A stretch of DNA of 48,195 bases from Saprospiraceae bacterium (lineage in GTDB: Bacteria; Bacteroidota; Bacteroidia; Chitinophagales; Saprospiraceae): the NCBI GenBank assembly GCA_016787285.1, contig JAEUUV010000001.1, positions 1-48,195 of the forward strand, written 5' to 3'. Positions 4,637 to 48,195 of this stretch are shown here, one piece after another. The notes beneath the pieces were generated by a model. The model had not been told where the DNA came from, made no database searches, and saw nothing but the letters and a program-made list of their open reading frames with translations. A program made the position numbers and the translations under genes. Position 1 is the first letter of the stretch, and every line of letters begins with the position of its first letter.

Positions 4637-5425
4637 ATGTCTGCCACTGCTGCACCTGTACAGGAAGAAACCTACAAAAAGGTCCAGAACATTCTCATTT
4701 CTCAACCTAACCCCAATTCCACACAACGGATCGCCTACGATGAATTGGAAAAGCGATTTGGTGTGCGGATTGACTTCGTCCCGTTTGTGACGGTAGAGGG
4801 CCTGACGGAAAAAGAGTACCGGAAAAATCGGGTTTATCCCAACGACTACACCGCTATCGTGTTCACCAGCCGCACGGCTATTGATCACTTTTTCCGGCTT
4901 TGCAACGAATTGCGCATCAAAATATCGGAGGATACCAAGTATTTCTGTTCCTCCGAAACCGTGGCGAACTACCTCCAGAAGTTCATCATGTTCCGCAAAC
5001 GCAAGGTGTTCAACGGAGCCAAATCCATTCAGGATCTGAAGGCGTACATCCTGCGCAACAAGGACGAACGCTTTTTCCTGCCCTGCAGCGACCCGGGTAA
5101 CCCCGAGGTCACCAAATTTTTTGCCGATCTCAAGGTGCCTATCCAGGAAGCGGTCATGTACCGGACGGTCAATACCGACCTGAGCGACCTGAAGGCCATC
5201 AAGTACGACATCATTGCATTCTTCTCGGCGCTCGAAATCAAATCCATGTTCGAGCAGTTTCCAGACTTTAAGCAGGAAGACCGTCGTATCTGTGTGTTTG
5301 GGAAAGCAGCCCACAAGGCCGTTACCGACAGCGGTATGAATGTGAACATTCAGGCCGGTACACCGGAAGCGCCCTCTATCGCCGTCGCACTCGAGAATTA
5401 CCTGAAGATTTCCAACGCCAACTAA
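4637..5425 (+). CDS. hemD: Uroporphyrinogen-III synthase
   Basis: Predicted to close and invert ring D of hydroxymethylbilane to form uroporphyrinogen III in tetrapyrrole (heme, siroheme) synthesis; soluble and cytosolic. The 262 residues match the usual length. Sequence blocks fit the two-lobed fold of this divergent family: FVTVEGLTEKEYR, NDYTAIVFTSRTAIDHFF, FCSSETVANYLQKF, FFLPCSDPGNPEV, VPIQEAVMYRTV, YDIIAFFSALEIKSMFEQFP and the ending CVFGKAAHKAVTDSGM. The family has few invariant residues, so assignment rests on overall pattern and on the DUF4271 neighbour. The stop codon TAA is the first base set of a palindromic repeat shared with the convergent gene. No other heme gene is in the window. 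Confidence 0.85.
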   Translation: MSATAAPVQEETYKKVQNILISQPNPNSTQRIAYDELEKRFGVRIDFVPFVTVEGLTEKEYRKNRVYPNDYTAIVFTSRTAIDHFFRLCNELRIKISEDTKYFCSSETVANYLQKFIMFRKRKVFNGAKSIQDLKAYILRNKDERFFLPCSDPGNPEVTKFFADLKVPIQEAVMYRTVNTDLSDLKAIKYDIIAFFSALEIKSMFEQFPDFKQEDRRICVFGKAAHKAVTDSGMNVNIQAGTPEAPSIAVALENYLKISNAN

Positions 5426-5549
5426 TTGATTCGATTAAGTCCGATTGATTCGATTGATTCGATTACCCACTTGATGCCGCAGTTATCGCGCTCGGTAATC
5501 GAATCAATCGGATTTAATCGAATCAATCGAATCAATCGAATCAATCAAT
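5423..5549. repeat. Palindromic element A1, stop-to-stop, unit TGATTCGAT
   Basis: Left arm (about 5425-5465) is built from the 9-nt unit TGATTCGAT; right arm (5496-5549) is its reverse complement, differing by one unit and a few bases. It starts at the hemD stop and includes the stop of the convergent ATPase gene, so it fills the whole gap. The loop core 5466-5497 matches, in inverse orientation, the loop of element A2 (28 of 32 positions). Likely roles: bidirectional transcript end or REP-like element. Confidence 0.85.
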
Positions 5550-7164
5550 TATTCGCCGCAAACGCCTGTTCCACTTTTTTCCGGAATTGCTCGTAGGTCT
5601 CTGCCGGTATTTTGTGCCGGATGGACTGAAGAAACTGCCTCAACTTGGTGTATTCGCTCTCGGTGAGCATGTTGTCTTCCATGAACGTGTTGAACAGTTC
5701 AAGGAAGTTCTGGCTCACGTTGCGGGCAAATTCGATGCGCTTGACCTTGTCTTCCACGAAAGCCAGAAAGTATAACCCCTCGGTGTAGTTGAGCCGGCGG
5801 CGCATGACTAAGCCGTCCACCTCGTTTTTGATCGCTTCCAGGCGTTGGGCCGCCACCTCGGCGCTGATGATCTGCATTTCAAATCCGGCATACACTTCCT
5901 GCGCCTGTTCGCCATAGAACCTGATGAGTCGCTCCCGCCGGCGGAACACCCACCAGCCAACCAGAAATGTGAGTAACGCCGTGGTGGCCACCATGGTAAT
6001 TTCCACGAAATACCCCGTATCCTGCAGGTACTGCATCTGCCGATCCCAAAAACTGGATCGTTGCGACAGTCCCCCTGTGCGTGTGGTGTAATCAAGTGGG
6101 CCGAAATCCCGCTCCGTCATTTGTCGGGTGCGGCGCAAGGCATTGATGTGGCCCATGAACGTGCGTTTCAGTTCGGGCAAGTCTTTTTCCAGAAAGTAGT
6201 CGCGCACGCTGCTGCCTTGTCCCAACTGGAAGCCGCTCCCGTAGCGCTCCTCGATGAGCAGGTTCGTTTTCAAAAAATAAAACAAAAATTGCTGCAACCG
6301 CTGGGTGTCGGTCACGGTGGCAGCGCGGAGGCTGTCACGTGAGCGGCCCCATTTGCGGCGCAGGTGTTCGGCCAGTTCGCGGGCATTGGGCTTGAGGATG
6401 TACGGCCAGCCGAGGCGTTTGAAATGCTCGCCGTTGAACTCAACCAACGACCCCGGACCGTGGTGCGTCACGGAGAGCAGGCGGCAGTTGGCCGGCAATC
6501 CAACCATTTTGCCGCCTAATTCAGCCATGTCGCCGGCGCTGCCCAGTGCTTCCCATAAGCCGGGGCCGAAAAAGGTTTCCGGGTTGATTTTGTCAAAGTT
6601 ATCCAGCAAAACCACAAAATGCTGCTCCGGGTACCGGCGACAATGTTCCCAGAAACGCAGCAGTTCACCCGGCACGAAACGCCCCTTATCCTCGTGACCA
6701 ATGTATTTTTTGTGAAATTCCAGATCGAACTGGGGCGAACACTCCACGAGCAAAATATTTTCGGGACGCCCTGTCAGCAAGCGGGCCAAGTGTTTGGTCT
6801 GTTTGGTGGCGCCCACCCCCGTGACACCCGAAATCACCATATTTTTTCGCTGCATGGCTTCCCGGAACAAGTCGCGGAAGGCCATCCATTCGATGGTGGA
6901 AAGGGAAGGCTTCGACGCGATGCGCAGGGCCGTGGAATCGCGGCGGCGATATGGAATCCGGTGCCAGGCGCAGTACAGTTGTTGCAGCGAGTCGGGCACA
7001 TCCTGAAGCAGCAAATGCCGTTGCTGCGCCAGAATGCCGGCTTCATCCCAGACGGGATCAGGCTGGTCCCGCAACCCGAGCCAAATGGCCAGAATGAGGA
7101 GTGGTACCACAAAGAGGAGCGTACGGGTAGGGGAGGAGGATTTAAAATGAGCCGTCTGAATCAC
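5545..7164 (-). CDS. Membrane-anchored AAA-like ATPase with degenerate Walker A
   Basis: About 539 residues from a GTG at 7164; no ATG fits, since the open frame upstream runs into the divergent gene. A hydrophobic N-terminal helix (LLFVVPLLILAIWLGL, about 17-32) would anchor it. A nucleotide-binding region follows: VISGVTGVGATKQTK (about 110-124), where a normal GxxxxGK[ST] loop would be expected, then FVVLLDNFDKINPETFF (about 183-199) as a Walker B with following acidic turn, and LPANCRLLSVTHH, which resembles the sensor-1 region of McrB-type AAA proteins. A second membrane segment (VEITMVATTALLTFLVGWWVF) lies near 375-395, then a helical tail. Family is not firmly recognised; an NTPase role is inferred and the altered P-loop may mean loss of hydrolysis. 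A TACTTTTG box sits three bases upstream of the GTG, so the true start may differ. Confidence 0.65.
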   Translation of the reverse strand: MIQTAHFKSSSPTRTLLFVVPLLILAIWLGLRDQPDPVWDEAGILAQQRHLLLQDVPDSLQQLYCAWHRIPYRRRDSTALRIASKPSLSTIEWMAFRDLFREAMQRKNMVISGVTGVGATKQTKHLARLLTGRPENILLVECSPQFDLEFHKKYIGHEDKGRFVPGELLRFWEHCRRYPEQHFVVLLDNFDKINPETFFGPGLWEALGSAGDMAELGGKMVGLPANCRLLSVTHHGPGSLVEFNGEHFKRLGWPYILKPNARELAEHLRRKWGRSRDSLRAATVTDTQRLQQFLFYFLKTNLLIEERYGSGFQLGQGSSVRDYFLEKDLPELKRTFMGHINALRRTRQMTERDFGPLDYTTRTGGLSQRSSFWDRQMQYLQDTGYFVEITMVATTALLTFLVGWWVFRRRERLIRFYGEQAQEVYAGFEMQIISAEVAAQRLEAIKNEVDGLVMRRRLNYTEGLYFLAFVEDKVKRIEFARNVSQNFLELFNTFMEDNMLTESEYTKLRQFLQSIRHKIPAETYEQFRKKVEQAFAANN

Positions 7165-7167
7165 GCA

Positions 7168-7175
7168 CAAAAGTA
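7168..7175 (-). promoter_or_regulatory. -7 box upstream of the AAA-like gene
   Basis: Minus strand TACTTTTG, exact match to TAnnTTTG, ending three bases before the GTG at 7164. Either the mRNA is leaderless or translation begins further in. Confidence 0.5.
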
Positions 7176-7239
7176 GAAGGATTACCGGGCTTGTGAAATT
7201 CGCTACTTTCGCCGCGCAATTTTTTTCAAACCAGGCACC

Positions 7240-7950
7240 ATGTTCCGATACGTATCGCCCTTGATTCTCGCCATTTTTTGTTGCTACACGGTTCGTCTCG
7301 AAGCCCAGAATTTCCGGGTTCAAGTCGCCGCATTCGCCGATTCCGTGCCGGCGTCCTATTTCAAATCGCGCGGCATCAGCGGCGTGGTGGCCGGCGTGGA
7401 CGACCACGGCATTTACCGGTACTATTTTGGGTCGTACCCCACGCGCCTCGAAGCGGAAAAAGCGCAAAAACAACTTGATGCCAATGACTTCAAAAACACG
7501 GTGATCATTGATCTGGAGGAGCAACGCCTGCTGACCGACCAAAGCCGCTGCGCGTATTTCAAAGGCGGACCGGTGCAGGTAGCCGAAAGCGATACGGTGC
7601 GTTTTGGCTATTTCGATCCGGGCAAGGCCACACTGTCCGACGACGGCAAAACCGATCTGGAATTTTTTCTAAAAAAACTCAAGGAAAAACCCGCGTCCGA
7701 ATTGCGCATCCTCGGCTATTCCGACGCTACAGGTGCCGGCAAGGCCAACCTCGAACTGGCTACCAACCGCGCCCGCGTCGCCCGCAACTACCTCATTGAT
7801 CGTGGCATTGATCCCGCCAGAATCCGGCTGCGCGTGTACGGCGAATCCGTTTCCGGTGGCATCGAAGACCCCGATGAAGTGGAACGCGAAAGCGAACGCG
7901 AGGAATTGCGCAAACTGTTCCGATGTGTAGTGCTGTACTGGAAAAATTGA
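7240..7950 (+). CDS. SPOR-like/OmpA-like envelope protein
   Basis: A 236-residue exported protein. It has a signal peptide (to about residue 21, ending at EAQN). A SPOR-like segment follows (about 23-92, FRVQVAAFADSVPASYF and GIYRYYFGSYPTRLEAEKAQKQL). The C-terminal OmpA-like peptidoglycan-binding domain (about 118-235) has the sequence FGYFDPGKATLSDDGKTDL, then ILGYSDATGAGKANLELATNRARVARNYL and IRLRVYGES. In the family, OmpA-like domains bind diaminopimelate of peptidoglycan and SPOR domains bind denuded glycan strands, so a periplasmic wall-associated role is likely. It is divergent from the ATPase gene with a 75-bp gap; a near-consensus TACTTTCG lies at 7204-7211. Its TGA stop lies inside repeat element A2. 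Confidence 0.85.
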   Translation: MFRYVSPLILAIFCCYTVRLEAQNFRVQVAAFADSVPASYFKSRGISGVVAGVDDHGIYRYYFGSYPTRLEAEKAQKQLDANDFKNTVIIDLEEQRLLTDQSRCAYFKGGPVQVAESDTVRFGYFDPGKATLSDDGKTDLEFFLKKLKEKPASELRILGYSDATGAGKANLELATNRARVARNYLIDRGIDPARIRLRVYGESVSGGIEDPDEVERESEREELRKLFRCVVLYWKN

Positions 7951-8078
7951 TTAGATTGATTCCGATTGATTCGATTAAGTCCGATTGATTCGATTATTCC
8001 GAATACCGAGCGTGACAACCGCGGCATCATGTGGGTAATCGAATCAATCGGACTTAATCGAATCAATCGAACCAATTC
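7945..8078. repeat. Palindromic element A2, stop-to-stop, inverse copy of A1
   Basis: Arms 7963-7996 and 8036-8069 are perfect 34-nt reverse complements composed of GATTGATTC-type units. The element begins in the stop codon of the OmpA gene and ends one base short of the stop of the convergent MBL-rhodanese gene. Its loop core (8004-8035) matches that of A1 at 28 of 32 positions when reverse-complemented, so the two are copies of one element in opposite orientations. Confidence 0.9.
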
Positions 8079-9491
8079 CTACAATTCCGTCGCTTGTTCC
8101 ACATACTGGGAAATGGCTACATTCCCGCTTTCCTTGATCGCTTTGAAACCCGCTTCCACATTCACGAGGTTGTCGAAGCCCCGGTTTTTCAGAATGCTGA
8201 TGGCGATAACCGAGCGGTAGCCGCCGGCGCAATGCACGAGGTATTGCACATCGTGGCGGAGTTCGGACATGTTTTTATTGATGAAATCCAGCGGAAAATT
8301 CTGCGCACCGATGACGTGTTCGGTGTCGTACTCGCTGTGGCGGCGCACGTCGAGTACGGTGTTTTTGCCGGTTTTCATGCGGTTGGCAAAGGTGTCGGCG
8401 CTGATGCTTTCCATCGAGTCAATGTCGTTGCCCGATGCCTGCCAGGCGGCAAAACCGCCTTTCAGGAAACCCAGCGTATTGTCGTAGCCCACGCGCGACA
8501 AGCGGGTGACGGCCTCTTCCTCGCGGCCTTCCGGACAAACCAGCAGGATCGGTTGCTTCAGGTCGGTGATGAGCGTGCCCACCCAGGAAGCAAACTGGCC
8601 GTCCAGCCCGATGAAAATAGCGCCCGGGACGAAACCTTTCGCAAACTCCTGCTCGGTGCGGGTGTCGAGGATGAGCGCCCCCTCAGATTCGGCCACGGTG
8701 ATGAATTCCCGCGGACTGAGCGGGTGCAAGCCCCGGTTGAGCACCGTCTCGATACTCTCGTAACCCATTTTGTTCATCACGGCATTTTTGGGGAAATACT
8801 GCGGCGGATCCACGAGGCCGGTGGTGACTTCTTTCACAAACTCGGCTTTGGTCATGTCGGCGCGCAGGGCGTAGTTGAACTGTTTTTGCAAGCCGATGGT
8901 GGATTCCGTTTCCTTGGCCATTTTTTTGCCGCAGGCCGAACCCGCGCCGTGGCCGGGGTACACCTTCACGTCGTCGGGCAGGGTCATAATCTTGTTGCGC
9001 AGCGAGTCGAACAGGTGCCCGGCGAGGTCTTCGCGGCTGAGGTCGGTTTTCACGGCCAGGTCGGGGCGGCCCACGTCGCCGATGAACAACGTGTCGCCGG
9101 TGAACACGGCTACTTCCTTGCCTGCTTCATCGAGCAGCAAAAAACTGGAGGATTCCATCGTGTGACCGGGCGTATGCAGCACTTTGATCCCAACCTTGCC
9201 GACTTTCAGCACTTCGCCGTCTTTGGCAATATGCGCCTCAAAGTTGGGCTGTGCCGTCGGGCCGAATACGATGGTGGCGCCGGTATTTTTCGCCAGGTCC
9301 AGGTGGCCCGACACGAAGTCGGCGTGGAAGTGTGTCTCAAGCACGTACTTGATTTTGGCGCCGTCCTGTGCCGCACGGTCTATGTACGGCTGCACCTCGC
9401 GGAGGGGGTCAATGATGACGGCTTCGCCGTTGCTTTCGATGTAGTAGGCAGCCTCGGCCAGACAGCCGGTGTACAGTTGTTCAACTTTCAT
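8079..9491 (-). CDS. Metallo-beta-lactamase fold protein with two rhodanese domains
   Basis: A 470-residue cytosolic sulfur-metabolism protein. The N-terminal MBL domain (about 1-240) carries [11 protein letters not shown], giving metal ligands His54, His56, Asp58 and His63, then [22 protein letters not shown] and [12 protein letters not shown], as in persulfide dioxygenase (ETHE1/Blh) proteins. Rhodanese 1 (about 255-355) contains [11 protein letters not shown] and [10 protein letters not shown], an altered active loop. Rhodanese 2 (about 370-460) contains [11 protein letters not shown] and the intact-looking loop HCAGGYRS with the sulfur-carrying Cys. The family oxidises or transfers sulfane sulfur, for example glutathione or other low-molecular-weight persulfide; the natural thiol here is unknown. 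The ATG at 9491 is set by the conserved start. Convergent with the OmpA gene across A2. Confidence 0.93.
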
Positions 9492-10542: not shown

Positions 10543-10558
10543 ACTTTAACCCACACTC

Positions 10559-13589: not shown

Positions 13590-13595
13590 CAGGCT

Positions 13596-16512: not shown

Positions 16513-16637
16513 ACCGGTTTGCCTTTTTTCAAAATGATGAGGAAAATCATTTGGCGAAACCAATTAAAATTGAACACAAAAAACCTAACTTGCCGCCCAT
16601 TCGCCAAACACCTGCCAACATTTCATCCAATATTCCC

Positions 16638-16662
16638 AACTCAAAACTCAAAACTCAAAACT
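16638..16662. repeat. Tandem ACTCAAA repeat (7-bp unit)
   Basis: Three and a half copies of ACTCAAA in the 180-bp gap before the HYR gene. The same array recurs, longer, at 34781-34812 at the end of element B2. Confidence 0.85.
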
Positions 16663-16692: not shown

Positions 16693-19600
16693 ATGAGGAA
16701 AACTGCTACACCGACCGCACTCCCAATTCTCCTCTTTTGGCTCTACCTCGCCACAACCCTGTTTGCCGAGCCGGGGATGAGGTCCGCCGTTGAGCGGACG
16801 GTTCCCTTCGGGATGACAAACACGGTGGGGCAAAAAATGAGTAGCCAAGGCTCGGCGGTAACGGGACTTTTAATAATCCTCCCGGAAAATCCTCCAGCCC
16901 GTAACCTTCCAACCCGTAACCCCCAAACCTCCCTCCATTATGCTGCCCGCGGCACCGGGCGCACTACGGGGCACATCGCCACGCTGTACGTGTCCAACCC
17001 TACGCCGATGCCGTTGCGTACCGTCGTCGGGGATATATTCATTCCTTCCGATCAGGATTATCAGGGCTATGTGGTGCTGCAAACCTACCCGGTGGAGGTG
17101 CCGCCGTTCAGCACGGTACGGGTGCCGCTCGAAGGCTACTGCACCAACGTGCAGCGCCCGCCTGTGCCTGACGGCGGCGCCATGCCCGACGTGTCGCAGT
17201 GGGTGTCGTGGGTCGAAGCCGACCCCTTGCCGGAGTTGGGCAAAACCCCCGCACCGGCGTTTTTCATCGTGCCCGAGGCGGCGCCCGGCGATCCGCTGGC
17301 ACTCACATACCCGGGCACGACCACTCCCTTTCCCTATCGCATTGATTTCAACCGCAACCCGCGACAGGCAGCCCGGCTCCTGTTGCATACCGCGTGGTCG
17401 GCCGGACAGGCGTTCGACCGGTACCTGCGCGAGGGCAAAATTCGCTTGCCCGAAACCCGGCGCCACGACATGATCCAGCAGATCCTCTGGGCATACGCCG
17501 CGCGACTGGAGGGGAAAACCTACGACAAAGCTGCATTCGCTACCCAGTTGACCGAAGAAGCGGAGCAGCAAATGAACTGCCCCGCCGCTACTTTTCCCGA
17601 AGAAACGCAGCAGCAGGTGGATCGGGAAACGCAGGACCTCTGGGCCGGAATTTCGCTCGTGGGCGCCGGCGCCAAACTGATCCCGCCGGCAACCCAACAC
17701 CCAACCGATATTTTTCAGGAAATCCCTTCCGGCCCGGTGGTACACCCCGCCGACGCCTTGTCCCGGATTTTGGACAATACCGATCCTGCGCAACCGGATG
17801 CCCCGGACAAACTCGTGCCTGCGCTGGTTTTTTTGCAAAAAAACGACACCACTCCGGCGCTGAAAACCTTGCGACTTGTCGCTCGGGAGAAATGGAAAAC
17901 CTGGCTGAATCGCGTTGTCGTGCTAATCAGCGCGGATTCGGACACGGCGTTTCGCGATATTTTTGCCGTTCTGGGCTACCTGCAATCCGCCCCCGGCGGC
18001 GCCCTGCCCGAAGACGAACGCCGTGCCCTGACCACGACGCTTCTCGGCAAACTGACCGCGCACCTGCAAACCCGGGTTGCCGCGCTACGGCCCGACGACC
18101 CGGCGTACCTCGGGCAGTGGCGCACCCTGAAAAGTTGGCAAAGCACCCGCTGGTACGCCGACTATTGCGTCGCCGCCAACCCGCTGAAAACGCTGGGTTT
18201 GCCGCACCCTGCACGCACCGCAGCAGCGTTCAATCCGGCCAATATTGCCCTCGCGGGGGCGTCGTGGAAGCATATCTTCCTGCCTGTTCCCGGCAACGGG
18301 CCGAAAAAATTTCCCTGGTGGATACCCGCGGTAGCCGCAGGCGGCGGAGTCGTATACCTGCTTTTGCAAGACAAAGACGATACGCCGCCTGCGCCCACAC
18401 CGCCTGTGGCAGTAGCGGATGCCGTCACGCTGCCTTGCGGCGGCCAAACTTCGGTAACCGTGCTGGGCAACGACACGGGCGAGGGCATCTCCGTGACCTC
18501 GGCTACGGGCACTTCGGGTATTTCGGTATCGGTATCCGGCACGACTACAGTGCTCGTTGTGAGCGGTGGTTTTCCGGGGGCGTTCACCGCAGCGTACACC
18601 ATCGCCGACAAAGCCGGCCAAACTGCCACGGGCAGCATCGCCGTCACCGTGAACGACCAGACCGCGCCCGTCATCGTTTGCCCGGCCAATCTTTCGCTCG
18701 AAGGCTGCGGCCAACCGCCGGCGCCGGCGGTGTCCGGCCAGGCAACTGCCACCGACGATTGCGGCCCGGCGCCGGCGGTCGGCTTTGCCGACGAACTCTC
18801 CGGCACGCCCTGCGACCGCCTCGTTACCCGCACCTGGTCGGCAGTGGACGCCTCCGGCAAAAACGCCGTTTGCACGCAAACTATCACCATTCGCGACCAA
18901 ACAGCCCCGGTGCTCACGTTTTGCCCGACCGCCGTCACGGTGTCGTTGGGGCAGCAAAACGACCTCGGCCTCACCGGTCAGGCCACGGCGACCGATGCCT
19001 GCCAGCCGCCGGTGGTGGAAACGACATTTGCCGACGACCTGAGCGGGTTCGGCGCCTGCGGCGGTGTTATCGCGCGCACCTGGACGGCCACCGATGCCTG
19101 CGTTAATACGGCTACCTGTGCGCAAACCATCACAGTTCAGGATCAAAATCCGCCGGAAATTACGTGTCCTGGCCCCGTCGAAACAGCGTGCGGGAAACAA
19201 ACCGACCTGACGGTCACAGGCCAGGCGACTGCCACAGACGACTGTGCCGGGCCGCTCACGCCGACATTCGCCGACACGCCGCCGGTGTTCAGCGGCTGTT
19301 CCGGCCCGATCATCCGCACCTGGACGGCCGCCGAACCGGGCGGCAATACGGCCACTTGTGTGCAGGACATTACCGTCGTGGACAAATCCGGTCCGGTATT
19401 CACGACCTGCCCGCCCGCCGTGACGGTACCTTGCGGACAACAAAACAACCTTGACATCACCGGGAAAGCCGTGGCTCAGGATGCGTGCAACGGCGCTACT
19501 TCACCTACCCACACCGACAACACGAGCGGGTTCAGCGGCTGTTCGGGGGTAATCGTACGCAGGTTTTCATCGGCAGACAGTTGCGGTAACTCGGCTACCT

Positions 19601-20922
19601 GCCAGCAGAACATCACCGTGTTCGACGACATGCAGCCGGTTTTTACCGCTTGTCCACAGGCGGTATTTGCGAATTGCGGCCAGCAAAACAACCTAAACAT
19701 CACGGGTCAGGCCGTGGCGGTGGATGCCTGTTCCGGCCCGGCAGTGGTGACCCACACCGACGACCTGAGTGAATTTTCCGCCTGCGAGGGCCTGATCTGG
19801 CGCACGTTTCTGGCTACCGACCTCTGCGGCAACACGGCTACCTGCCTGCAGCCGATCACAGTGGTGAACGTGCCCTGCGGATTTACGCCTCTGTTTGCGT
19901 TCAGCCCTGCGGTGTGTGGCGACTGCAACGGTGCGGTCAGTACCACCATGACGCCGCCCGGTTCGTATACCTTCGAATGGGAAACCGGCGATGCCGGCCC
20001 CAATGTGCCCGGCCTGTGCCCAGGCCCCATTTCGGTAACGATCACGGACAATGTGAACGAGTGCACCGATATTTTCACGCCGGAAGTGCCCGATATGCCG
20101 ATGCTGATCCTGACCGTTTTGCAAACGATCCCGCCCAGCGGGCCGTCGGCAAACGACGGGCGCGTGGTGCTGCAAGTGGGGCCGCCGAGTGCGCAACTGC
20201 CGTTTTTAGTGTTTGTGAACGGCGCTCCGGTGGGTACGGCCAATACATACACGTTTCAGATCACGAATATGCCGGCCGGGGAGTACGAAATTTTTGTGGT
20301 GGACGAGGGCGGAGAGGGGTGTCCTTCCAACACGGTCTTTGTGGTGCTTTTGCCGCAGGAGCCGCCGCCCGCAGGGCCGGAAGCCGGATTTGTGTCGCCC
20401 TGGTTTTCGCCGGGCTTGCCGGCTCTGCCCGAACAACCGGGAAGCGCATCGGCTGCTGCGCAAGTGGCCTGGGGAACGCCCGTGGGCATTTCGGCGGGTC
20501 TGCCCTTGGGCAATTTGTGGCAACTCCGCGTGGAGGTGGCCAACCTGACCGGTCGGCTGTACCGGAACGGGGCCGGCATTTCAGAAGCGATTTCGGTGCG
20601 AGCCGACCGCTTGACGGCAGGGGTGCGCCGGTACTTTCCGCAGCAGTCGTCGCGATGGGTGTTTTTTCAGGAAAACAGCGTGTCGCATGCGGTACTGCAG
20701 GCGAATATGCCGGTTCCAACACCTTCGCGGCGGCAATGGAGACTGAACGCCGGCGGCGGCCTGCGCTTTTCGCCGGCAAACACCTTGCAGATAGACCTGA
20801 GCGGTAGCCTGGGGCTGGATTTCGCCCCGGGAGGACTGCGCCTTTTGCCGGCTTTTCAGGTGCAGGCGCAACTGAATTTTGGAAGCGAGAAGTTGCCTCG
20901 TCGCAGATATGGAGACAAATAG
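16693..20922 (+). CDS. Large HYR-repeat surface protein with novel N-terminal module
   Basis: About 1409 residues from the ATG at 16693, which gives a signal peptide (MRKTATPTALPILLFWLYL, ATTLFAEP); the frame opens earlier but with no signal. Parts in order: a segment encoded by a repeat-like sequence (about 26-45); an unnamed beta-rich module (about 85-175) with TGHIATLYVSNPT, FIPSDQDYQGYVV, VPLEGYC and PPVPDGG; its helical partner (about 217-330); a hydrophobic stretch WWIPAVAAGGGVVYLLL near 541-557; five Cys-containing HYR-like repeats of about 80 residues (about 655-1058), each with TAP/PxxxxCP, QATATDxC and T-C-Q-ITV; an Ig-like part; and an outer-membrane-strand-like C-terminus (about 1310-1409). 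HYR domains are adhesion-type modules. The ending suggests attachment to the outer membrane. No T9SS tail. The next gene, 24 bases on, carries two copies of the same N-terminal module. Confidence 0.83.
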   Translation: MRKTATPTALPILLFWLYLATTLFAEPGMRSAVERTVPFGMTNTVGQKMSSQGSAVTGLLIILPENPPARNLPTRNPQTSLHYAARGTGRTTGHIATLYVSNPTPMPLRTVVGDIFIPSDQDYQGYVVLQTYPVEVPPFSTVRVPLEGYCTNVQRPPVPDGGAMPDVSQWVSWVEADPLPELGKTPAPAFFIVPEAAPGDPLALTYPGTTTPFPYRIDFNRNPRQAARLLLHTAWSAGQAFDRYLREGKIRLPETRRHDMIQQILWAYAARLEGKTYDKAAFATQLTEEAEQQMNCPAATFPEETQQQVDRETQDLWAGISLVGAGAKLIPPATQHPTDIFQEIPSGPVVHPADALSRILDNTDPAQPDAPDKLVPALVFLQKNDTTPALKTLRLVAREKWKTWLNRVVVLISADSDTAFRDIFAVLGYLQSAPGGALPEDERRALTTTLLGKLTAHLQTRVAALRPDDPAYLGQWRTLKSWQSTRWYADYCVAANPLKTLGLPHPARTAAAFNPANIALAGASWKHIFLPVPGNGPKKFPWWIPAVAAGGGVVYLLLQDKDDTPPAPTPPVAVADAVTLPCGGQTSVTVLGNDTGEGISVTSATGTSGISVSVSGTTTVLVVSGGFPGAFTAAYTIADKAGQTATGSIAVTVNDQTAPVIVCPANLSLEGCGQPPAPAVSGQATATDDCGPAPAVGFADELSGTPCDRLVTRTWSAVDASGKNAVCTQTITIRDQTAPVLTFCPTAVTVSLGQQNDLGLTGQATATDACQPPVVETTFADDLSGFGACGGVIARTWTATDACVNTATCAQTITVQDQNPPEITCPGPVETACGKQTDLTVTGQATATDDCAGPLTPTFADTPPVFSGCSGPIIRTWTAAEPGGNTATCVQDITVVDKSGPVFTTCPPAVTVPCGQQNNLDITGKAVAQDACNGATSPTHTDNTSGFSGCSGVIVRRFSSADSCGNSATCQQNITVFDDMQPVFTACPQAVFANCGQQNNLNITGQAVAVDACSGPAVVTHTDDLSEFSACEGLIWRTFLATDLCGNTATCLQPITVVNVPCGFTPLFAFSPAVCGDCNGAVSTTMTPPGSYTFEWETGDAGPNVPGLCPGPISVTITDNVNECTDIFTPEVPDMPMLILTVLQTIPPSGPSANDGRVVLQVGPPSAQLPFLVFVNGAPVGTANTYTFQITNMPAGEYEIFVVDEGGEGCPSNTVFVVLLPQEPPPAGPEAGFVSPWFSPGLPALPEQPGSASAAAQVAWGTPVGISAGLPLGNLWQLRVEVANLTGRLYRNGAGISEAISVRADRLTAGVRRYFPQQSSRWVFFQENSVSHAVLQANMPVPTPSRRQWRLNAGGGLRFSPANTLQIDLSGSLGLDFAPGGLRLLPAFQVQAQLNFGSEKLPRRRYGDK
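16782..16820 (+). repeat. Copy of the B-family core inside a coding region
   Basis: GAGCGGACGG followed by a TCCC-TTC-GGGA hairpin and ATGACAAA. Against the loop of element B1 (30612-30627), 24 of 29 positions agree, and the small stem is kept by paired changes. It falls directly after the signal-peptide codons of the HYR gene and is translated in frame. Confidence 0.6.
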
Positions 20923-26406: not shown

Positions 26407-26490
26407 CCAAAACCCCTGCCTGATCTCTACTTGCCAAGCCCTGAAAGGGCGAAATACACTATCGCAGGGTGTAGTCCTGCGGGTTTGGAG
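26407..26490. repeat. REP-like double hairpin between convergent genes
   Basis: Two hairpins, GCCCT-GAA-AGGGC at 26438-26450 and CGCAGG-N7-CCTGCG at 26463-26481, enclosed by an outer imperfect pair (CCAAAACCCC at 26407-26416 with GGGTTTGG at 26481-26488). The CCCTGAAAGGGC core resembles REP-type palindromes that I know from Bacteroidota. It fills the gap between the propeller gene and the TonB receptor and may end both transcripts. Confidence 0.65.
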
Positions 26491-26492
26491 CG

Positions 26493-30542: not shown

Positions 30543-30549
30543 GAATAAA

Positions 30550-30700
30550 TGTCACAGAGGCTCACAGAGGCTTAGAGGACACAGAGTTATTCCCGATTTA
30601 GAGCGGACGGATTCCTGCGGAATGACAAAAAAACTCTGTGTCCTCTAAGCCTCTGTGAGCCTCCGTGACACTTCTACTCTACGCAGGCGCAACACTCACA
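30550..30700. repeat. Palindromic element B1 with 39-nt arms, stop-to-stop
   Basis: Arms 30550-30588 and 30632-30670 are reverse complements at 38 of 39 positions; the units are variants of TCACAGAGGC. The 43-nt loop holds GAGCGGACGG and a small hairpin ATTCC-TGC-GGAAT (30611-30623). The tail (30671-30700) runs into the stop codon of murI, and the left end lies eight bases from the PorP stop. The right half aligns with element B2 over about 100 bases. Probably a bidirectional transcript end or a mobile palindrome. Confidence 0.9.
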
Positions 30701-32023: not shown

Positions 32024-32054
32024 AGATGCAAATAGATTCAGGTGAAAAAAAAGG

Positions 32055-32379
32055 TTACTGGTTGATTGGTTGGCTGGTTGATTGGTTGATTGGTTGACTG
32101 GTTGGCTGGTTGACTGGTTGGCTGGTTGATTGGTTGGCTGGTTGATTGACTGGTTGATTGGTTGATTGGTTGACTGGCTGGTTCAGCCGCCATTGGCGTT
32201 ATAGTCATCAACAACGCAACGCATGATACTCAACCCGACAACGACATAATCTACATGGCTTCAACATCAAATTGACAGATTAAGCAGTTAATGGAGATAC
32301 GCTGCTTCTGCCGGCGTTCTCCCCAACATCCGTTGAGCCAGTCAACCAATCAACCAGTCAACCAGTCAACCAATCAACC
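32055..32379. repeat. Element C: palindrome of 8-bp TGGTTGAT-type units
   Basis: Left array (about 32057-32185) is about 15 units of TGGTTG followed by AT, AC or GC; the right array (32334-32379) is the reverse complement in about five units. They enclose a 150-nt centre with no homology that I can see to the other elements. The right array contains the TGA stop of the upstream ompH-like gene. This explains most of the 350-bp gap between the two chaperone genes; no gene was found in the centre. Confidence 0.85.
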
Positions 32380-32889
32380 TTTTTTCAGCATGGCTTTGAG
32401 GTCTTCGGTTTTGTCAAATTTTTTATCGGCGAAGAGCATGCCGGAGGCGCTGCCTTTTTCGAAGATGTATTCGAAGCCGCGGTCGGTGGCATAGCGCTCG
32501 ATGGCCGTGTACACTTTTTCCTGGATGGGCTTGACGAGTTCCTCGCGTTTTTTGAACAGGTCGCCTTCAGGGCCGAATTTGCGGCGCTGGATTTCGCGCA
32601 CTTCTTTTTCCTTGTTCAGGATTTCGTCTTCGCGTTGTTTTTTCATCTCCTCGCTGAGCATTACCTGCTCGGCCTGGTACTTGCTGTACAGCCCCTTGAT
32701 CACGTCTTGCTGCTGGGCAATTTCCTGCCGCCATTGGGTGGCGATTTTGTCGAGTTGTTCCTGGGCTTTCTGATATTCCGGTATGCTTTCCAATACGGCG
32801 TTGACGTCCACGTAGGCGATACGTTGGGCGAGCGCAAAAGTGGTGAAAAACAGGGCGATAAAGGCGGTTGACACAAATTTCTTCATCAT
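32374..32889 (-). CDS. OmpH/Skp-family periplasmic chaperone (first copy)
   Basis: A 171-residue paralogue of the next gene. Signal peptide (MMKKFVSTAFIALFFTTFALAQ), then RIAYVDVNAVLESIPEYQ, a charged helical hairpin (about 45-125; KIATQWRQEIAQQQDVIKGLYSKYQAEQ and on) and the strand FEYIFEKGSASGMLFADKKFD. The family role is holding outer-membrane proteins on the way to the BAM complex. Its final codon and stop are formed by the first repeat units of element C. A TACTTTTG box is at 32952-32959. A bamA gene, often found upstream in related genomes, is absent here; a divergent histidine ammonia-lyase occupies that side. Confidence 0.93.
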   Translation of the reverse strand: MMKKFVSTAFIALFFTTFALAQRIAYVDVNAVLESIPEYQKAQEQLDKIATQWRQEIAQQQDVIKGLYSKYQAEQVMLSEEMKKQREDEILNKEKEVREIQRRKFGPEGDLFKKREELVKPIQEKVYTAIERYATDRGFEYIFEKGSASGMLFADKKFDKTEDLKAMLKKG

Positions 32890-33183: not shown

Positions 33184-34668
33184 ATGCACCTGATCGGCCC
33201 GGACCACCTGTCGCTCGAAACCATTGCCGCCATTGTGCGCGATAACCTGCCTCTTGCACTTTCCGATGAAGCCCGCCTGCGCCTGCGACGTTGCCGTAGC
33301 TACCTGGACGACAAGCTACAGCACGACCACGCCCTTTTTTACGGCATCAACACCGGCTTCGGGTCGCTTTGCAACATTCGTATTTCGGATGCCGACATTG
33401 AGCAGTTGCAGCATAACCTGCTCGTGTCGCACGCTGCCGGCATGGGTGATCCGGTGCCGCCGGAAGTGGTGCGGCTGATGCTTTTGCTGAAGATTCAGAG
33501 CCTGTGCTACGGCTTTTCCGCCGTGCGGGAAGAGGTGGTGGAGCGGCTGGTGGATTTTTTCAACGCCGGCATTTCTCCGGTGGTGCTCGAACACGGTTCG
33601 CTCGGCGCTTCGGGCGACCTGGCGCCGCTGGCCCACCTGAGTCTGCCCCTTGCAGGTATAGGCGAGGTTTGGTACGAAGGTCGCCGCCAACGCGCCGATG
33701 TGGTGCTGCAATTGTTCGGCTGGGAACCACTCGCTTTCCGCGCCAAAGAAGCGCTGGCGCTACTCAACGGCACGCAGTTTTCGACGGCCTACGCGGTGTG
33801 GTGCCTGCTCGAAAGCCGCCGTTTGACCGGCCTTGCCGACCTGAACGCCGCCATTGGCTACGACGCCTTTGATTGCCGTACGGCGCCCCTGGATGAGCGT
33901 ATTCACCGCATTCGTCCGCACGCAGGGCAGTTGGCCGTGGCCGAAAACCTGCGCGAATGGCTGGCCGGAAGCGCCATTGCCGCCCGGGAAAAAACCAGCG
34001 TGCAGGATCCGTATTCGTTCCGTTGCGTGCCGCAGGTGCATGGTGCAAGCCGCGACGCGCTGGTCCATGTGGAGCAAATGGTGCTGACAGAAATCAACAG
34101 TGTGACCGACAATCCCAATGTGTTTCCAGACGGCGATACCATCCTGTCGGGCGGCAATTTCCACGCCCAGCCGGTAGCTCTGCCGCTCGATTATCTGGCG
34201 CTGGCGTTGTCCGAATTCGGCAGCATCGCCGAGCGGCGTATTTACCAACTCATCGGCGGACAACGCGGCCTGCCGGCTTTTTTGACCGAAAATCCGGGGC
34301 TGCACTCGGGCATGATGATTGCCCAATACACGGCTGCCGCTATCGCCAGCCAGAACAAATCGCTCTGCACACCCGCTTCTGCCGACAGTATCGTGAGTTG
34401 CAACGGCCAGGAAGACCACGTGAGCATGGCCGCGAATGCCGCTACCAAGGCGCGCCGGGTGGTGCTCAATCTGGAGCGGTTGCTTGCCATCGAATTCATG
34501 GTGGCCATGCAGGCACTCGACTTCCGGCTGCCGCTGCGCTCCTCACCCCGCATCGAGGCGATCAGGGAGCAATACCGGGAAGTGGTGCCCCGGCTGACCG
34601 ACGACCGGGTGTTGAGCGCGGATATGGAGCGGACGCGGGAGTGGCTTGGCAACGTAAATATCACATAG
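33184..34668 (+). CDS. hutH: Histidine ammonia-lyase
   Basis: Deaminates L-histidine to urocanate, the first step of histidine degradation; cytosolic tetramer. The 494-residue length is normal. Key motifs: FYGINTGFGSL (substrate-side Tyr53), and GSLGASGDLAPLAH, in which Ala142-Ser143-Gly144 condense to the MIO electrophile. Others are YSFRCVPQVHG, SVTDNPNVF, GGNFHAQPVAL and QEDHVSMAANAA. Phenylalanine/tyrosine lyases share the fold, but the HAL pattern is the better fit. No other hut genes (hutU, hutI, hutG) are in the window, so it may act alone or with genes elsewhere. Its TAG stop lies within the first bases of palindromic element B2. Confidence 0.92.
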   Translation: MHLIGPDHLSLETIAAIVRDNLPLALSDEARLRLRRCRSYLDDKLQHDHALFYGINTGFGSLCNIRISDADIEQLQHNLLVSHAAGMGDPVPPEVVRLMLLLKIQSLCYGFSAVREEVVERLVDFFNAGISPVVLEHGSLGASGDLAPLAHLSLPLAGIGEVWYEGRRQRADVVLQLFGWEPLAFRAKEALALLNGTQFSTAYAVWCLLESRRLTGLADLNAAIGYDAFDCRTAPLDERIHRIRPHAGQLAVAENLREWLAGSAIAAREKTSVQDPYSFRCVPQVHGASRDALVHVEQMVLTEINSVTDNPNVFPDGDTILSGGNFHAQPVALPLDYLALALSEFGSIAERRIYQLIGGQRGLPAFLTENPGLHSGMMIAQYTAAAIASQNKSLCTPASADSIVSCNGQEDHVSMAANAATKARRVVLNLERLLAIEFMVAMQALDFRLPLRSSPRIEAIREQYREVVPRLTDDRVLSADMERTREWLGNVNIT

Positions 34669-34812
34669 GCTCATGGAGGAGCATGAGACTCACAAAAAAC
34701 GGATTCCTGCGGAATGACAAAAGAACTCTGTGAGCCTCTTTTTCTCTGCGAGCCTCTGTGACACTCCACTCTACGAGGGCAACTCAAAACTCAAAACTCA
34801 AAACTCAAAACT
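34656..34812. repeat. Palindromic element B2, stop-to-stop, plus ACTCAAA array
   Basis: Left end TCACATAGGCTCATGGAGG is a degenerate form of the B1 arm and contains the hutH stop. The right half (ACGGATTCCTGCGGAATGAC, then AACTCTGTG, GAGCCTCTGTGACACT and ACTCTACG) aligns with B1 over about 100 bases. The element ends in four and a half ACTCAAA units (34781-34812) that run into the stop of the convergent ATE-like gene. Confidence 0.85.
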
Positions 34813-41231: not shown

Positions 41232-41234
41232 CGT

Positions 41235-42746: not shown

Positions 42747-42776
42747 TGTTTCTGTGTTTGTTGTGAAAAATCGGGG

Positions 42777-42793
42777 CAAAGGTGGCACCTTTG
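42777..42793. promoter_or_regulatory. Perfect 17-bp palindrome overlapping two -7 boxes
   Basis: CAAAGGTG-G-CACCTTTG reads CACCTTTG on both strands, a one-mismatch -7 box for each of the divergent genes (starts at 42746 and 42840). It could be a shared promoter, an operator of the MocR-type regulator, or both. Confidence 0.55.
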
Positions 42794-42839
42794 TTCTGGC
42801 AAAAAACAGATTCAGTTTTTAAAAAATCAAGCAGAACAG

Positions 42840-44273: not shown

Positions 44274-44637
44274 TTCTTGGAATATACCCTGAGATTGCCC
44301 CGTTTGGCTCTGAGTATTCGCCTCCTTCTCAGCCCAGGGGTTTAATTCTCAGCCCAGGGGTTTAATTCTCAGCCCAGGGGTTTACCCCTGGGCAAACGAA
44401 AAATTAACATACCGCCCGGCCCAAGGGTAAACCCCTGGGCTGAGAATTAAACCCTCCGGTTTAAAAGCCTGTTATGGAGCAAGGAGTTATCTAATTGATA
44501 ATCATAAAGATACAGCCACAATTTCCCATATTCAATTTATAAAAATATCTAACAGCACCGAGGCTAAGGTGCAGTATTCGTTTGTGTCAGAATAAATTCG
44601 CTTCTTTCACAACCGTTAACCACTACACCCTGCCACC
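44274..44637. other. Gap upstream of the Y1 transposase
   Basis: About 360 bases. The first part holds the REP-like D repeats (44326-44451). The remainder (44470-44637) is AT-rich, unlike the flanking genes, and shows no gene; it is probably the transposase's own leader. Confidence 0.6.
44326..44451. repeat. REP-like D repeats: three direct copies and one inverse
   Basis: The 20-nt unit TTCTCAGCCCAGGGGTTTAA occurs at 44326-44345 and 44346-44365, and again from 44366 with its last base changed. The third copy leads into a 9-bp hairpin (44372-44380 with 44385-44393, loop TTTA). An inverse copy of the core lies at 44428-44451. The repeats sit about 190 bases upstream of the Y1 transposase gene, and CTGAGAATT recurs just downstream of it. 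Confidence 0.85.
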
Positions 44638-45081
44638 ATGTCTCATTCCAAAGTTCGTATATGGATTCATGCAGTTTTTGGTACCAAATACCGGGAGGCG
44701 CAAATTTTGCCATCCATTGAATCTGAAATTCACCAGATACTTTTCAGGCAATTTGTAGCGTACGACTGTTATGTAGATTGCATAAATGGCATGCCCGATC
44801 ATGTCCATACCCTGTTCTTGCTTAGTCCCAAGAAATCTGTTTCAGATGTGATTGGCTTTGTAAAAGGCGGCAGCTCACACGAAGTCAACCAAAGTCTGAT
44901 GCTTCCCAGCAAATTTGCCTGGCAGTCCGGCTATTCAGCATTCTCCGTAAGTGAATCAAAAGCGGTCAATGTCCGGCGGTATATTGAGCGCCAGAAGATT
45001 CACCATTTGGGAAATAATTTTGCTGAAGAACTCGAATGGCTGGAACGAATGAACGGGATCGTACCGGATACCCACGGATAA
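44638..45081 (+). mobile_element. tnpA: IS200/IS605-type Y1 (HUH) transposase, RAYT-like
   Basis: A 147-residue single-strand transposase of the REP-associated/IS200 type. The HUH pair is in MPDHVHTLFLL, and the catalytic Tyr is in RRYIERQ (YxxxQ) after GYSAFSVSES. All catalytic residues and the full length are present, so it may be active. It nicks and joins single-stranded DNA at hairpins. REP-like hairpins flank it: D repeats at 44326-44451 upstream, and a CACGGAT-AA-ATCCGTG hairpin (45073-45088) followed by CTGAGAATTCCCAGG downstream. No tnpB is present. Surrounding DNA is more AT-rich than the window average, consistent with recent arrival. Confidence 0.9.
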
Positions 45082-45110
45082 ATCCGTGTGCTGAGAATTC
45101 CCAGGGGGGC
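45073..45110. repeat. Hairpin and REP-like motif after the Y1 transposase
   Basis: CACGGAT (45073-45079) and ATCCGTG (45082-45088) form a tight hairpin that includes the transposase stop region, followed by CTGAGAATTCCCAGGGG, which shares CTGAGAATT with the upstream D unit. Likely the right end of the element or its REP site. Confidence 0.6.
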
Positions 45111-45132
45111 AGACGGGCCGATAAAGGAGGCC

Positions 45133-46392: not shown

Positions 46393-46402
46393 ATACAGCG
46401 CA

Positions 46403-46614
46403 TTTTCGATTGATTCGATTGTTCAGATTGATTCGATTAATTCGAATGAGAAAAAAAATCGGGGCTGGGCTTTCAGGTGCGATATGCCCAACAAATGTAT
46501 GAAACATGTTGTCGCCATTTAACGCAGTATCTGAAAGTCCCGCCCCAATCGAAATAATCGAATCAATCGGCTCAATCGAACCAATCGAATCAATCTGATC
46601 AATCGAACCAATCC
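46403..46614. repeat. Palindromic element A3 with nested hairpin
   Basis: Outer arms (46403-46446 and 46556-46614) are made of the same TCGATTGAT-type units as A1 and A2, reverse-complementary but imperfect. Inside is a nested pair, GGGGCTGGGCTTTCAG against CTGAAAGTCCCGCCCC. The centre (about 46476-46530) is unlike that of A1 and A2. It lies in a tandem gap: the right end abuts the stop of the DUF2911 gene, the left end the start side of the esterase gene. Confidence 0.8.
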
Positions 46615-47472: not shown

Positions 47473-47538
47473 GGACAAGTAATAGTTGATAAGGAAAAAT
47501 GTTTGGCGGTTGAACAACCGTTTTTCAAAAAAGGTTGG

Positions 47539-47546
47539 CAAAGGTA
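47539..47546 (-). promoter_or_regulatory. -7 box of the DUF2911 gene
   Basis: Minus strand TACCTTTG, exact match, about 67 bases upstream of the ATG at 47472. Confidence 0.6.
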
Positions 47547-47616
47547 AACACCTCGTGGTACTTTTTGCCGCACGGAGTCGCATTTGAACACTCCCGCCGA
47601 TTTTGGCACGAAGTAC

Positions 47617-47624
47617 TACTTTTG
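47617..47624 (+). promoter_or_regulatory. -7 box of the ElaA-type gene
   Basis: TACTTTTG, exact match, 14 bases before the ATG at 47639; the leader would be under ten bases. Confidence 0.6.
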
Positions 47625-47638
47625 GGCAAAAAATCCGC

Positions 47639-48094
47639 ATGCTTCGATTTTCCTGTCTCCTCTTCGATACCCTCAGCCCTCGCGAACTGTACGAGATCAT
47701 GGCCCTGCGTCAGGAGGTTTTTGTGGTGGAACAAAACTGCCCCTACCTCGATGCCGACGGCAAAGACCTGCAGTCCTGGCACCTGATGGGCCGAAATGCG
47801 GAAGGCGTCTTGTTGGCGTACACACGTCTGCTGCCCGAGGGTGTATCGTATCCGGGATATATTTCCATCGGACGGGTGGTCAGTTCGCCGGCAGCACGCG
47901 GCACCGGCGCCGGGAAACTGATTATGCAACGCAGTATTGATCTGTGCCGGCACTTGTTCGGCCCTTTGCCAATCAAAATCGGAGCACAGTCCTACCTGCT
48001 GAAGTTTTACGAAAGCCTCGGCTTCATCTCCACCGGTGAAGAATATCTGGAAGACGGAATTCCGCACACCAAGATGGTGTTGGGCGACCGGTAA
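47639..48094 (+). CDS. ElaA-type GNAT acetyltransferase
   Basis: A 151-residue GNAT protein. The ATG at 47639 is chosen over one 36 bases upstream because it gives the standard ElaA start (LRFSCLLFDTLSPRELYEIMALRQEVFVVEQNCPYLDADGKD) and fits the promoter box. The FVVEQNCPY motif is the ElaA hallmark; the acetyl-CoA binding region is IGRVVSSPAARGTGAGKLIM and the C-terminal strand is KIGAQSYLLKFYESLGF. The acceptor is not known with confidence for the family. It is divergent from the DUF2911 gene and is followed directly by a tandem CCCAATCA array. Confidence 0.9.
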   Translation: MLRFSCLLFDTLSPRELYEIMALRQEVFVVEQNCPYLDADGKDLQSWHLMGRNAEGVLLAYTRLLPEGVSYPGYISIGRVVSSPAARGTGAGKLIMQRSIDLCRHLFGPLPIKIGAQSYLLKFYESLGFISTGEEYLEDGIPHTKMVLGDR

Positions 48095-48099
48095 ATTTC

Positions 48100-48195
48100 C
48101 CCAATCACCCAATCACCCAATCACCCAATCACCCAATCACCCAATCACCCAATCACCCAATCACCCAATCACCCAATCACCCAATCACCCAATCA
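48100..48195. repeat. Tandem array of 12 CCCAATCA units (element E, cut by window end)
   Basis: Twelve exact copies of the 8-nt unit CCCAATCA beginning five bases after the ElaA stop and running to the last base of the window. By analogy with elements A and C this may be one arm of a palindrome whose other arm lies outside. Confidence 0.9.

Follow-up and report, generated by a model that had tools for sequence, protein, structure and literature searches.

Palindromic repeats of many unrelated kinds are scattered through the intergenic DNA of an uncultured Saprospiraceae-like bacterium, and the feature of their placement that generalises is a position on the gene's 3′ side; the niche between convergent genes, in which they were noticed, is mostly local to one 48,195-nt window (the whole stretch analysed: Saprospiraceae bacterium contig JAEUUV010000001.1 of assembly GCA_016787285.1, positions 1 to 48,195, forward strand). 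We consider it fairly probable that these are dispersed intergenic palindromes added to ordinary gaps, with arms kept by template switching, and that they are not selected for transcript ending. The source assembly is a metagenome bin of 345 contigs; the sample for gap statistics comprised 98 contigs (1.10 Mb; 121 convergent, 126 divergent and 503 co-directional gaps), and contigs L098 and L099, chosen for known matches, were excluded from its counts. For inverted repeats, the minimum arm length was set at 20 nt in this sample and at 14 nt in the window.

Palindromic elements of the window

Seven convergent gaps lie in the window, and five of them, all those longer than 80 bp, are filled by an element (Table 1); the two short ones, between 41231 and 41235 and between 45081 and 45133, hold none. 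Gene calls, in a set that includes 7240–7950, and coordinates bear out the sequence-only reading that A1, A2, B1 and the REP-like site fill such gaps and that B2 covers most of its own, leaving 41 nt free on the side away from hutH (33184–34668), whose stop codon it overlaps by 16 nt. The hairpin design ascribed to all of them holds for A1, A2 and B1, whereas neither the REP-like site nor B2 yielded an inverted repeat in the window scan, whose minimum arm length was 14 nt. Stop codons at A1 and A2 vary (TAA, TGA and TAG), and the 26-nt loop of A1 is the reverse complement of that of A2 (22/26 identical). The gene to the right of A2 (8079–9491) encodes a metallo-beta-lactamase/rhodanese protein; for the supposed ATPase gene at 5545–7542, Pfam gave nothing at E 0.001.

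Three further elements were said to abut a stop codon. This is so for C, where the right array extends over the stop at 32374, and for A3, whose end is a single nucleotide away from the stop at 46615, both in co-directional gaps, but not for E, where some 50 bp separate the first unit from the stop at 44273. Together with its Y1 transposase, E is of RAYT/REP-like type. The core of the REP-like site, or close variants, occurs at 14 places in sample and window together; the 26-mer of the ACTCAAA array recurs identically at 16637–16662; and an octamer array runs from 48100 to 48195, the contig stopping inside it. No Rfam family (4,227 searched) matched the window at gathering score.

Table 1 Elements and associated features of the window, with the gaps that they occupy
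Feature	Coordinates	Strand	Description	Gap
Perfect 21-nt inverted repeat	3560–3610		Absent from the list of the sequence-only reading	Divergent
A1	5426–5544		Nonamer-unit (GATTGATTC-type) palindrome; arms 5425–5455 and 5497–5527, 30/31 paired	Convergent, 119 bp, between 5425 and 5545; filled
A2	7946–8077		Family of A1; arms 7963–7996 and 8036–8069, 34/34 paired	Convergent, 128 bp, between 7950 and 8079; filled
REP-like site	26407–26492		Hairpin core GCCCTGAAAGGGC at 26438	Convergent, 86 bp, between 26406 and 26493; wholly occupied
B1	30544–30678		CACAGAG family; arms 38/39 paired; loop with GTCATTCCGCAGGAATCCGTCCGCTCT module; model match 144 bits	Convergent, 153 bp, between 30542 and 30696; filled
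C	32046–32385		Two inverted octamer arrays (GGTTGATT) flanking ~150 bp; arms 40/42 paired	Co-directional (−,−)
B2	34653–34769		Degraded family B copy; model match 46.8 bits	Convergent, 142 bp, between 34668 and 34811; mostly covered
Heptamer array ACTCAAA	34780–34805	+	Between B2 and ATE-like gene	
E	44325–44467		CCCAGGGGTTTA palindrome adjoining Y1 transposase gene; arms 35/36 paired	
Y1_Tnp (IS200-like) gene	44638–45081	+	147 aa; PF01797, E 4.4e-24	
A3	46405–46613		Nonamer arrays; arms 38/43 paired; loop 120	Co-directional (−,−)

Distribution across gap types

Several unrelated repeats sharing one niche and one hairpin design had suggested a class of transcript-end elements, a proposal that equal frequency in divergent gaps and within genes would undo. 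Real gaps of the sample held 82 inverted repeats that reached the 20-nt arm limit, and dinucleotide-shuffled gaps (of at least 40 bp, 10 rounds) held none. Taken per gap, the class as a whole is about as frequent in divergent as in convergent gaps (13/126 vs 17/121, p = 0.44; co-directional, 49/503), which on this count goes against the proposal, 104 of the 121 convergent gaps being without such an element; per kb of gap the frequencies do differ (1.33 convergent vs 0.52 divergent), and family B, treated below, departs from the class. Motif clusters, whose family labels F2–F17 stand for motifs picked by eye, gave 21 convergent and 18 divergent among 141, and the relative G009 gave 4/55 convergent and 3/53 divergent gaps. 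Called genes held 13 inverted repeats, as against 82 in gaps, and 27/141 of the short-motif clusters, where gene calls were not checked one by one.

What stands of the shared niche is the broad architecture and a preference for 3′ ends, not specificity for convergent gaps. In co-directional gaps 41/49 elements lie closer to the stop than to the start; 20 of the 49 sit no more than 10 nt from the stop, where uniform placement predicts 12.2 (p = 0.001), 7 are as close to the start, and for 8 the distance falls below zero, the arm running into the stop codon. Classing of arms by fixed period placed 32/95 beyond the shuffled 95% limit, 17 as self-complementary and 46 as neither; it could not separate families because units recur at uneven spacing, and, because only those 32 arms passed, arms of short tandem units are measured for one third of the set. 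The four self-complementary (class I) repeats of convergent gaps sit in very long gaps (p = 0.007). Patterns of family A matched 231 times, a reversed control 0 times; of 26 exact-pattern places, 25 (C340:32828 was left out) comprise 6 convergent, 16 co-directional, 1 divergent and 2 gene positions.

Family B and the length of gaps

Family B numbers 49 copies, 5 model matches that hold the loop module alone having been excluded, with 18 copies in convergent, 24 in co-directional and 5 in divergent gaps. Its copies favour convergent gaps, by a factor of 3.7 over divergent (p = 0.008) and of 3.1 over co-directional ones (p = 0.001), and convergent enrichment persists when A and B are taken jointly (p = 0.0016). 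With start codons called inside an element moved past it, B lies nearer the stop in 18/24 co-directional gaps, but in 13/24 with starts as called.

Subtracting the B element leaves gaps of ordinary length: 28 bp against 27 in element-free convergent gaps (p = 0.78), 58 against 61.5 in co-directional (p = 0.61) and 203 against 167 in divergent gaps (p = 0.64). The 'stop-to-stop' appearance therefore comes from DNA added to short gaps. When inverted repeats of every kind are pooled, co-directional gaps remain longer after subtraction than element-free ones (98 bp against 61.5 bp, p = 0.014). The 46 B flanks examined revealed no shared target sequence and no target-site duplication, the latter sought as 3–8-nt matches at nine boundary offsets against shuffled partners, with boundaries themselves uncertain.

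Among 40 genomes, the own one included, a B 17-mer (at most one mismatch) was present in the own genome alone, while family A was plentiful there and in G009, G015 and G024, sparser in G007 and G021, and reached at most four matches in any other. A search of the 40 genomes with the A2-flanking protein (seven loci viewed, the own one included) yielded no orthologous pair of filled and empty sites; the closest relatives (79–83% identity) do not keep gene order around that gene.

Arms and loops

Within a B copy, left and right arms agree beyond what the family shares. In the 43 copies used for pairing (6/49 shorter than 115 nt were excluded), the variable block paired at 7.91 of 10 positions, compared with 4.95 when right arms were permuted among copies and 5.91 in the largest of 2,000 permutations; overall arm pairing was 0.86 against 0.738. 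The 33 best-paired copies, a subset selected on pairing itself, gave 9.27 against 5.45 and 0.946 against 0.804, and up to four Watson–Crick pair types occur at single stem positions. Loops occur in both orientations relative to gene sense (7 same, 10 opposite). Both orientations are also expected from insertion of whole elements in either direction. Taken together, the arm matching, the two loop orientations and the lack of a G·U excess described below fit homogenisation by template switching during replication better than selection on RNA.

Origin and maintenance of the elements

That the palindromes are bidirectional terminators or 3′-end protectors, kept to stop converging polymerases or shield mRNA ends, would sit well with the very stable predicted folds of A1, A2 and B1 (−51.5, −66.4 and −81.7 kcal/mol), with the convergent enrichment of family B and the 3′ bias, and with the A-tract/stem/T-tract outer ends of many B copies, 23/43 of which end in a T-run (4 or more T among the final 6 nt, in model orientation). 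Room for another signal exists, canonical short terminators being rare in our own scan of the genome (18/745 gene ends: convergent, 8/208 element-free and 1/34 element-bearing; co-directional, 8/454 and 1/49). Yet divergent gaps are as rich per gap over all families, most convergent gaps do without an element, and the strand signature expected if termination were selected, as the sequence-only reading suggested, did not appear. The sense side of 49 co-directional elements shows no T-tract bias (2.10 T in 8 nt, against 2.29 antisense), and the sense 5′ A-run of co-directional B copies (2.76/6) is not weaker than the 3′ T-run (2.38/6). Bacillus cereus terminators are described as having G·U as their most frequent intermediate (PMC5381666), but B has no sense-strand excess of G·U, with 30 G·U against 32 A·C over all long copies in co-directional gaps and 9 against 9 in the best-paired ones (positions 6–43). 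With bidirectional intrinsic terminators as reported there, the elements share a palindromic form, a place between convergent genes and arms that pair and compensate; they differ in their far longer stems. We regard this explanation as quite unlikely.

Mobilisation of each family as a REP/REPIN by its own Y1 transposase is unlikely too, though it has a real chance. A search of the genome with the PF01797 profile found nine matches, most of whose loci carry private palindromes, E and the window's gene included. Two such palindromes are repeated in the sample (7 places for the TTGGCGTCCCGCCAA type, 5 for GACGAACAAGTTCGT); those of L001, L003 and L006 were found at no further place there. Among the inverted repeats listed for the nine loci, units of A, B and C are absent apart from those of the window's A3, over 1 kb distant from the Y1 gene there. 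A and B do resemble REPs and REPINs in being high-copy extragenic palindromes in inverted pairs, and intergenic, paired inverted units behind ORFs that may supply stops are reported for those systems (PMC3733652, PMC3116915), GTAG-type termini being credited with providing the stop codon (PMC3733652). E, which lies beside the window's Y1 gene, and the REP-like site fit; a GC-rich hairpin unit of 20–40 bp is seen in form in E and, at the REP-like site, in the core alone. A, B and C differ in being larger (about 120–350 bp), with a loop of their own, AT-rich or mixed arms of repeated short units (31–50 nt; 30–50 nt for A and B) and no RAYT among the nine loci.

A mobile element with a preference for stop codons or transcript ends could account for the excess of co-directional elements within 10 nt of a stop and for the arms that overlap one; against this stand the differing stop codons and the bare B flanks, and since gaps are ordinary after subtraction, purifying selection suffices. 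We judge the shared insertion preference that had been offered as an alternative improbable. An assembly artefact, for which the fragmentation of the bin and the contig end inside the octamer array might speak, is scarcely credible: the flanks of the elements are unique, their arms are varied yet consistent within themselves, and G009, sampled from contigs of up to 1.6 Mb, shows the same architecture.

The favoured explanation, that of palindromes added to ordinary gaps, treats the elements as inserts of 70 to 350 bp, of many unrelated families, joined to gaps of ordinary length. We infer insertion rather than see it because neither an empty orthologous site nor a target-site duplication was found. 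Inserts would accumulate where they do least harm, behind stops, at a distance from promoters and start sites, and purifying selection of this kind may underlie the 3′ bias; in a compact genome, with an element-free convergent median of 27 bp, they consequently look 'stop to stop'. Avoidance of promoters would account for the excess of B in convergent over divergent gaps, and less easily for that over co-directional gaps. This excess tells against the explanation, as do the co-directional gaps that stay long after subtraction over all inverted repeats, the very long convergent gaps of the four class I repeats and the T-runs that end many B copies. Complementarity between a copy's arms is probably upheld in the DNA itself, through template switching in replication (quasipalindrome correction), which would also invert the loop; arm homogenisation with spacer inversion is described in PMC8604942, and hairpin maintenance through template switching in PMC8794818. 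As in the inverted repeats treated in those sources, arms match within a copy more closely than between copies and the spacer occurs both ways; here, however, the pattern is seen among dozens of copies dispersed through a single genome and not along a species tree. Folding into hairpins would take place in any crossing transcript, so that transcript ending or protection may be a side effect, though nothing observed points to selection for it.

ERIC and NEMIS are MITE-like, non-coding palindromes of ~100–150 bp, intergenic and often transcribed. Our elements are likewise non-coding palindromic intergenic inserts with terminal inverted repeats, but no target-site duplication was seen and no parent transposase emerged from the Y1 search. 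Cyanobacterial STRRs are reportedly short intergenic direct repeats. The TAACTGA arrays described from Beggiatoaceae, Cyanobacteria and Bacteroidetes (PMC4679880) are also species-specific intergenic arrays of 7–9-nt units with no known mover, a few of which overlap stop codons; in the Guaymas genome they are placed mostly just upstream of start codons (PMC4679880). Unlike either kind of array, the repeats here mostly form palindromes by inverse pairing, and a single genome holds many unit sequences side by side. Tentatively, and with some doubt, we suggest that such 7–9-nt intergenic arrays may become 'palindromised', that is, made into inverted pairs and kept perfect by template switching without a transposase, their units turning over between species while architecture and post-stop place persist.

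Covarying stems are the usual proof of selected RNA structure, yet the 49-copy family B covaries strongly without a sign of RNA-strand constraint. The impression of a hairpin in every convergent gap of a compact genome can arise from inserts in short gaps, and controls both per gap and per base are needed before a terminator class is named. Family B offers a natural data set for how often DNA copying alone makes and keeps hairpins; were the class of palindromised arrays real, it would combine strong covariation with no RNA function and so provide a counter-example to covariation as proof of selected RNA structure.

Results

The sequence-only reading had taken stop-to-stop palindromes between convergent genes as a possible class of transcript-end elements. 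By our gene calls the window contains seven convergent gaps; the elements of that reading fill all five of 86–153 bp, one each, and the two shortest (3 and 51 bp) have no element inside. A1 and A2, palindromes of nonamer units (family A), share a 26-nt loop in opposite orientations (identity 22/26). The window is one complete contig (C332) of a fragmented genome (5.56 Mb, 345 contigs) and stops in an octamer array, so what broke the assembly was a repeat broadly similar in kind to the elements. The nearest hutH homologues are 69–82% identical and lie in metagenome-assembled genomes mostly labelled Saprospiraceae or Bacteroidota; the closest (82%, L170) is on a contig binned as Thermoanaerobaculia, which may be Bacteroidota DNA in the wrong bin.

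Palindromic elements and other repeats of the window
Feature	Position	Arm pairing	Gap type
A1 (family A)		30/31	
A2 (family A)		34/34	
A3 (family A)		38/43	co-directional
B1 (family B, CACAGAG family)		38/39	
C (inverted octamer arrays)		40/42	co-directional
E (palindrome beside Y1 transposase gene)		35/36	co-directional
Inverted repeat, 21 nt	3560-3610	perfect	divergent
Y1 transposase gene	44638-45081		
Gene with coding repeats of 240-243 nt at 18945-19862	16693-20922		
Gene with about eleven repeats of 117 nt (39 aa, VWGADAANVWAVG-like) and a Por secretion tail	24357-25730		
Contig end, within perfect CCCAATCA octamer array	48100-48195		

We sampled the genome across 98 contigs (those numbered 3 mod 6 to 345 and 0 mod 6 to 240, first 20 kb each; 1.10 Mb excluding N, 841 called genes). 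Inverted repeats whose arms reach 20 nt with at least 85% pairing occurred in 17/121 convergent, 13/126 divergent and 49/503 co-directional gaps (convergent versus divergent p=0.44, versus co-directional p=0.19), and shuffled gaps yielded none at the same criterion. By place, 82 lay in gaps, 13 in called genes and 5 at contig ends; per kilobase of gap, convergent gaps held 1.33, co-directional 0.99 and divergent 0.52. Motif counts for 17 families gave 21 convergent, 66 co-directional, 18 divergent, 27 in called genes and 9 at contig ends (convergent versus divergent p=0.61). In 400 kb of a second species (G009), elements occupied 4/55 convergent, 3/53 divergent and 20/201 co-directional gaps, their unit sequences mostly different (for example GTTGATAA) with some A nonamers. 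The earlier observation is largely right within the window, and the convergent niche does not hold for the class as a whole; family B is the exception.

A covariance model built from ten aligned B copies and run on both strands of the genome gave at least 99 matches (150 of 2,331 candidates scored), collapsing to at least 54 places, at least 49 of which carry B arms. From the outside inwards, a copy reads CGTAGAG-N5-GTGTCACAGAGGCTCACAGAG, about 9 nt of variable block, GGACACAGAGTTTTT and a loop module, GTCATTCCGAAGGAATCCGTCCGCTCTTAATCGG, found in both orientations, followed by the mirror image. The 49 copies found fall in convergent (18), co-directional (24) and divergent (5) gaps, one called gene and one contig end, an excess in convergent gaps over the genome sample's gaps (p=0.008 versus divergent, p=0.001 versus co-directional). 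Families A and B together show the excess (p=0.0016 and p=0.0019, respectively); A alone gives p=0.12. The loop module (GTCATTCCGAAGGAATCC...) also stands free as inverted pairs (L282:1501-1700, L330, L331, L333, L335), and B's outer CTCTACG recurs in it, making the modules nested.

The A pattern matches 231 times in this genome, against 0 for a reversed control, and among 40 genomes it is abundant in G009, G015 and G024, present in G007 and G021, and rare or absent elsewhere. The B pattern occurs in this genome alone of 40, and a looser version (CACAGAGNCNCACAGAG) in 9 of 395 Bacteroidota including this one, with at most nine matches in any other; these narrow distributions make both families lineage-specific. 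Private palindromes adjoin most of the genome's nine Y1 transposase matches (L001-L009), and E belongs with these. The genome thus holds many small RAYT/REP-like pairs, the palindrome mostly differing gene by gene. Among the inverted repeats listed at the nine loci, none has A, B or C units except A3, and A3 is over 1 kb away from the Y1 gene of the window. In 46 B flanks we saw no target-site duplication. We found no open paper on Saprospiraceae intergenic inverted or tandem repeats of this kind, a weak sign that they are novel.

Among the 43 B copies that reach 115 nt, stem positions 6-43 pair at 86% within a copy versus 73.8% with permuted right arms (maximum of 2,000 permutations, 78.8%), and the variable block keeps 7.91 of 10 pairs versus 4.95. 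In 33 copies selected by pairing (at least 36/44 pairs), the values are 94.6 versus 80.4% and 9.27 versus 5.45. Several stem positions show three or four Watson–Crick pair types among copies. Were the transcript's fold selected, sense-direction G.U should exceed A.C among non-Watson–Crick pairs; B copies in co-directional gaps show no such excess (30 versus 32 in all, 9 versus 9 in the best-paired). Read by loop orientation over all 44 positions, an apparent excess (59 versus 31) comes largely from the outermost six and drops to 26 versus 21 once these are removed. Loops run with gene sense in 7 copies and against it in 10.

Co-directional elements of the genome sample favour the 3′ side of genes: 41/49 lie closer to the upstream stop than to the downstream start (p=2e-6), 20/49 within 10 nt of the stop (12.2 predicted by uniform placement) and 7/49 within 10 nt of the start. 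The stop side holds 15/21 in G009 (p=0.08) and 13/24 family B copies with starts as called; shifting the seven starts called within an element to the first start codon past it gives 18/24 (p=0.02). Unpaired A-type arrays occupy entire short co-directional gaps (41-63 bp) from stop codon to ATG at L023, L024 and L335:281-340.

Discussion

Selection for bidirectional termination hairpins finds some favour in the very stable predicted folds and in the terminal T-runs of 23/43 B copies. Behind the stem, 49 elements show no sense-side T excess (2.10 versus 2.29 of 8 nt). Canonical short terminators, found by our scan at 18/745 gene ends, are rare at all ends, so the scan cannot show whether elements replace them. 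Nor does the stop-to-stop look require a special rule, because gaps with B subtracted equal element-free ones (medians: convergent 28 versus 27 bp, p=0.78; co-directional 58 versus 61.5, p=0.61; divergent 203 versus 167, p=0.64). With all inverted repeats subtracted, convergent (36 versus 27 bp, p=0.51) and divergent gaps (181 versus 167, p=0.47) also agree; co-directional ones stay longer (98 versus 61.5, p=0.014), which would fit more inserts going into longer gaps. Of the elements in convergent gaps, four are self-complementary and occupy very long gaps (p=0.007). PMC3733652 places REPs chiefly between unidirectional and convergent ORFs, 3′ of genes, their GTAG-type ends frequently supplying a TAG stop; a preference of dispersed palindromes for gene 3′ ends is thus already known.

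Template switching between inverted repeats, according to PMC8604942 and PMC8794818, yields homogenised arms and inverted spacers. From matching arms and inverted loops, we infer that this mechanism keeps B arms matched: palindromes would have been inserted between genes and their arms then maintained by switching. The elements are best read as inserted palindromes kept by template switching; they may act as terminators as a side effect.
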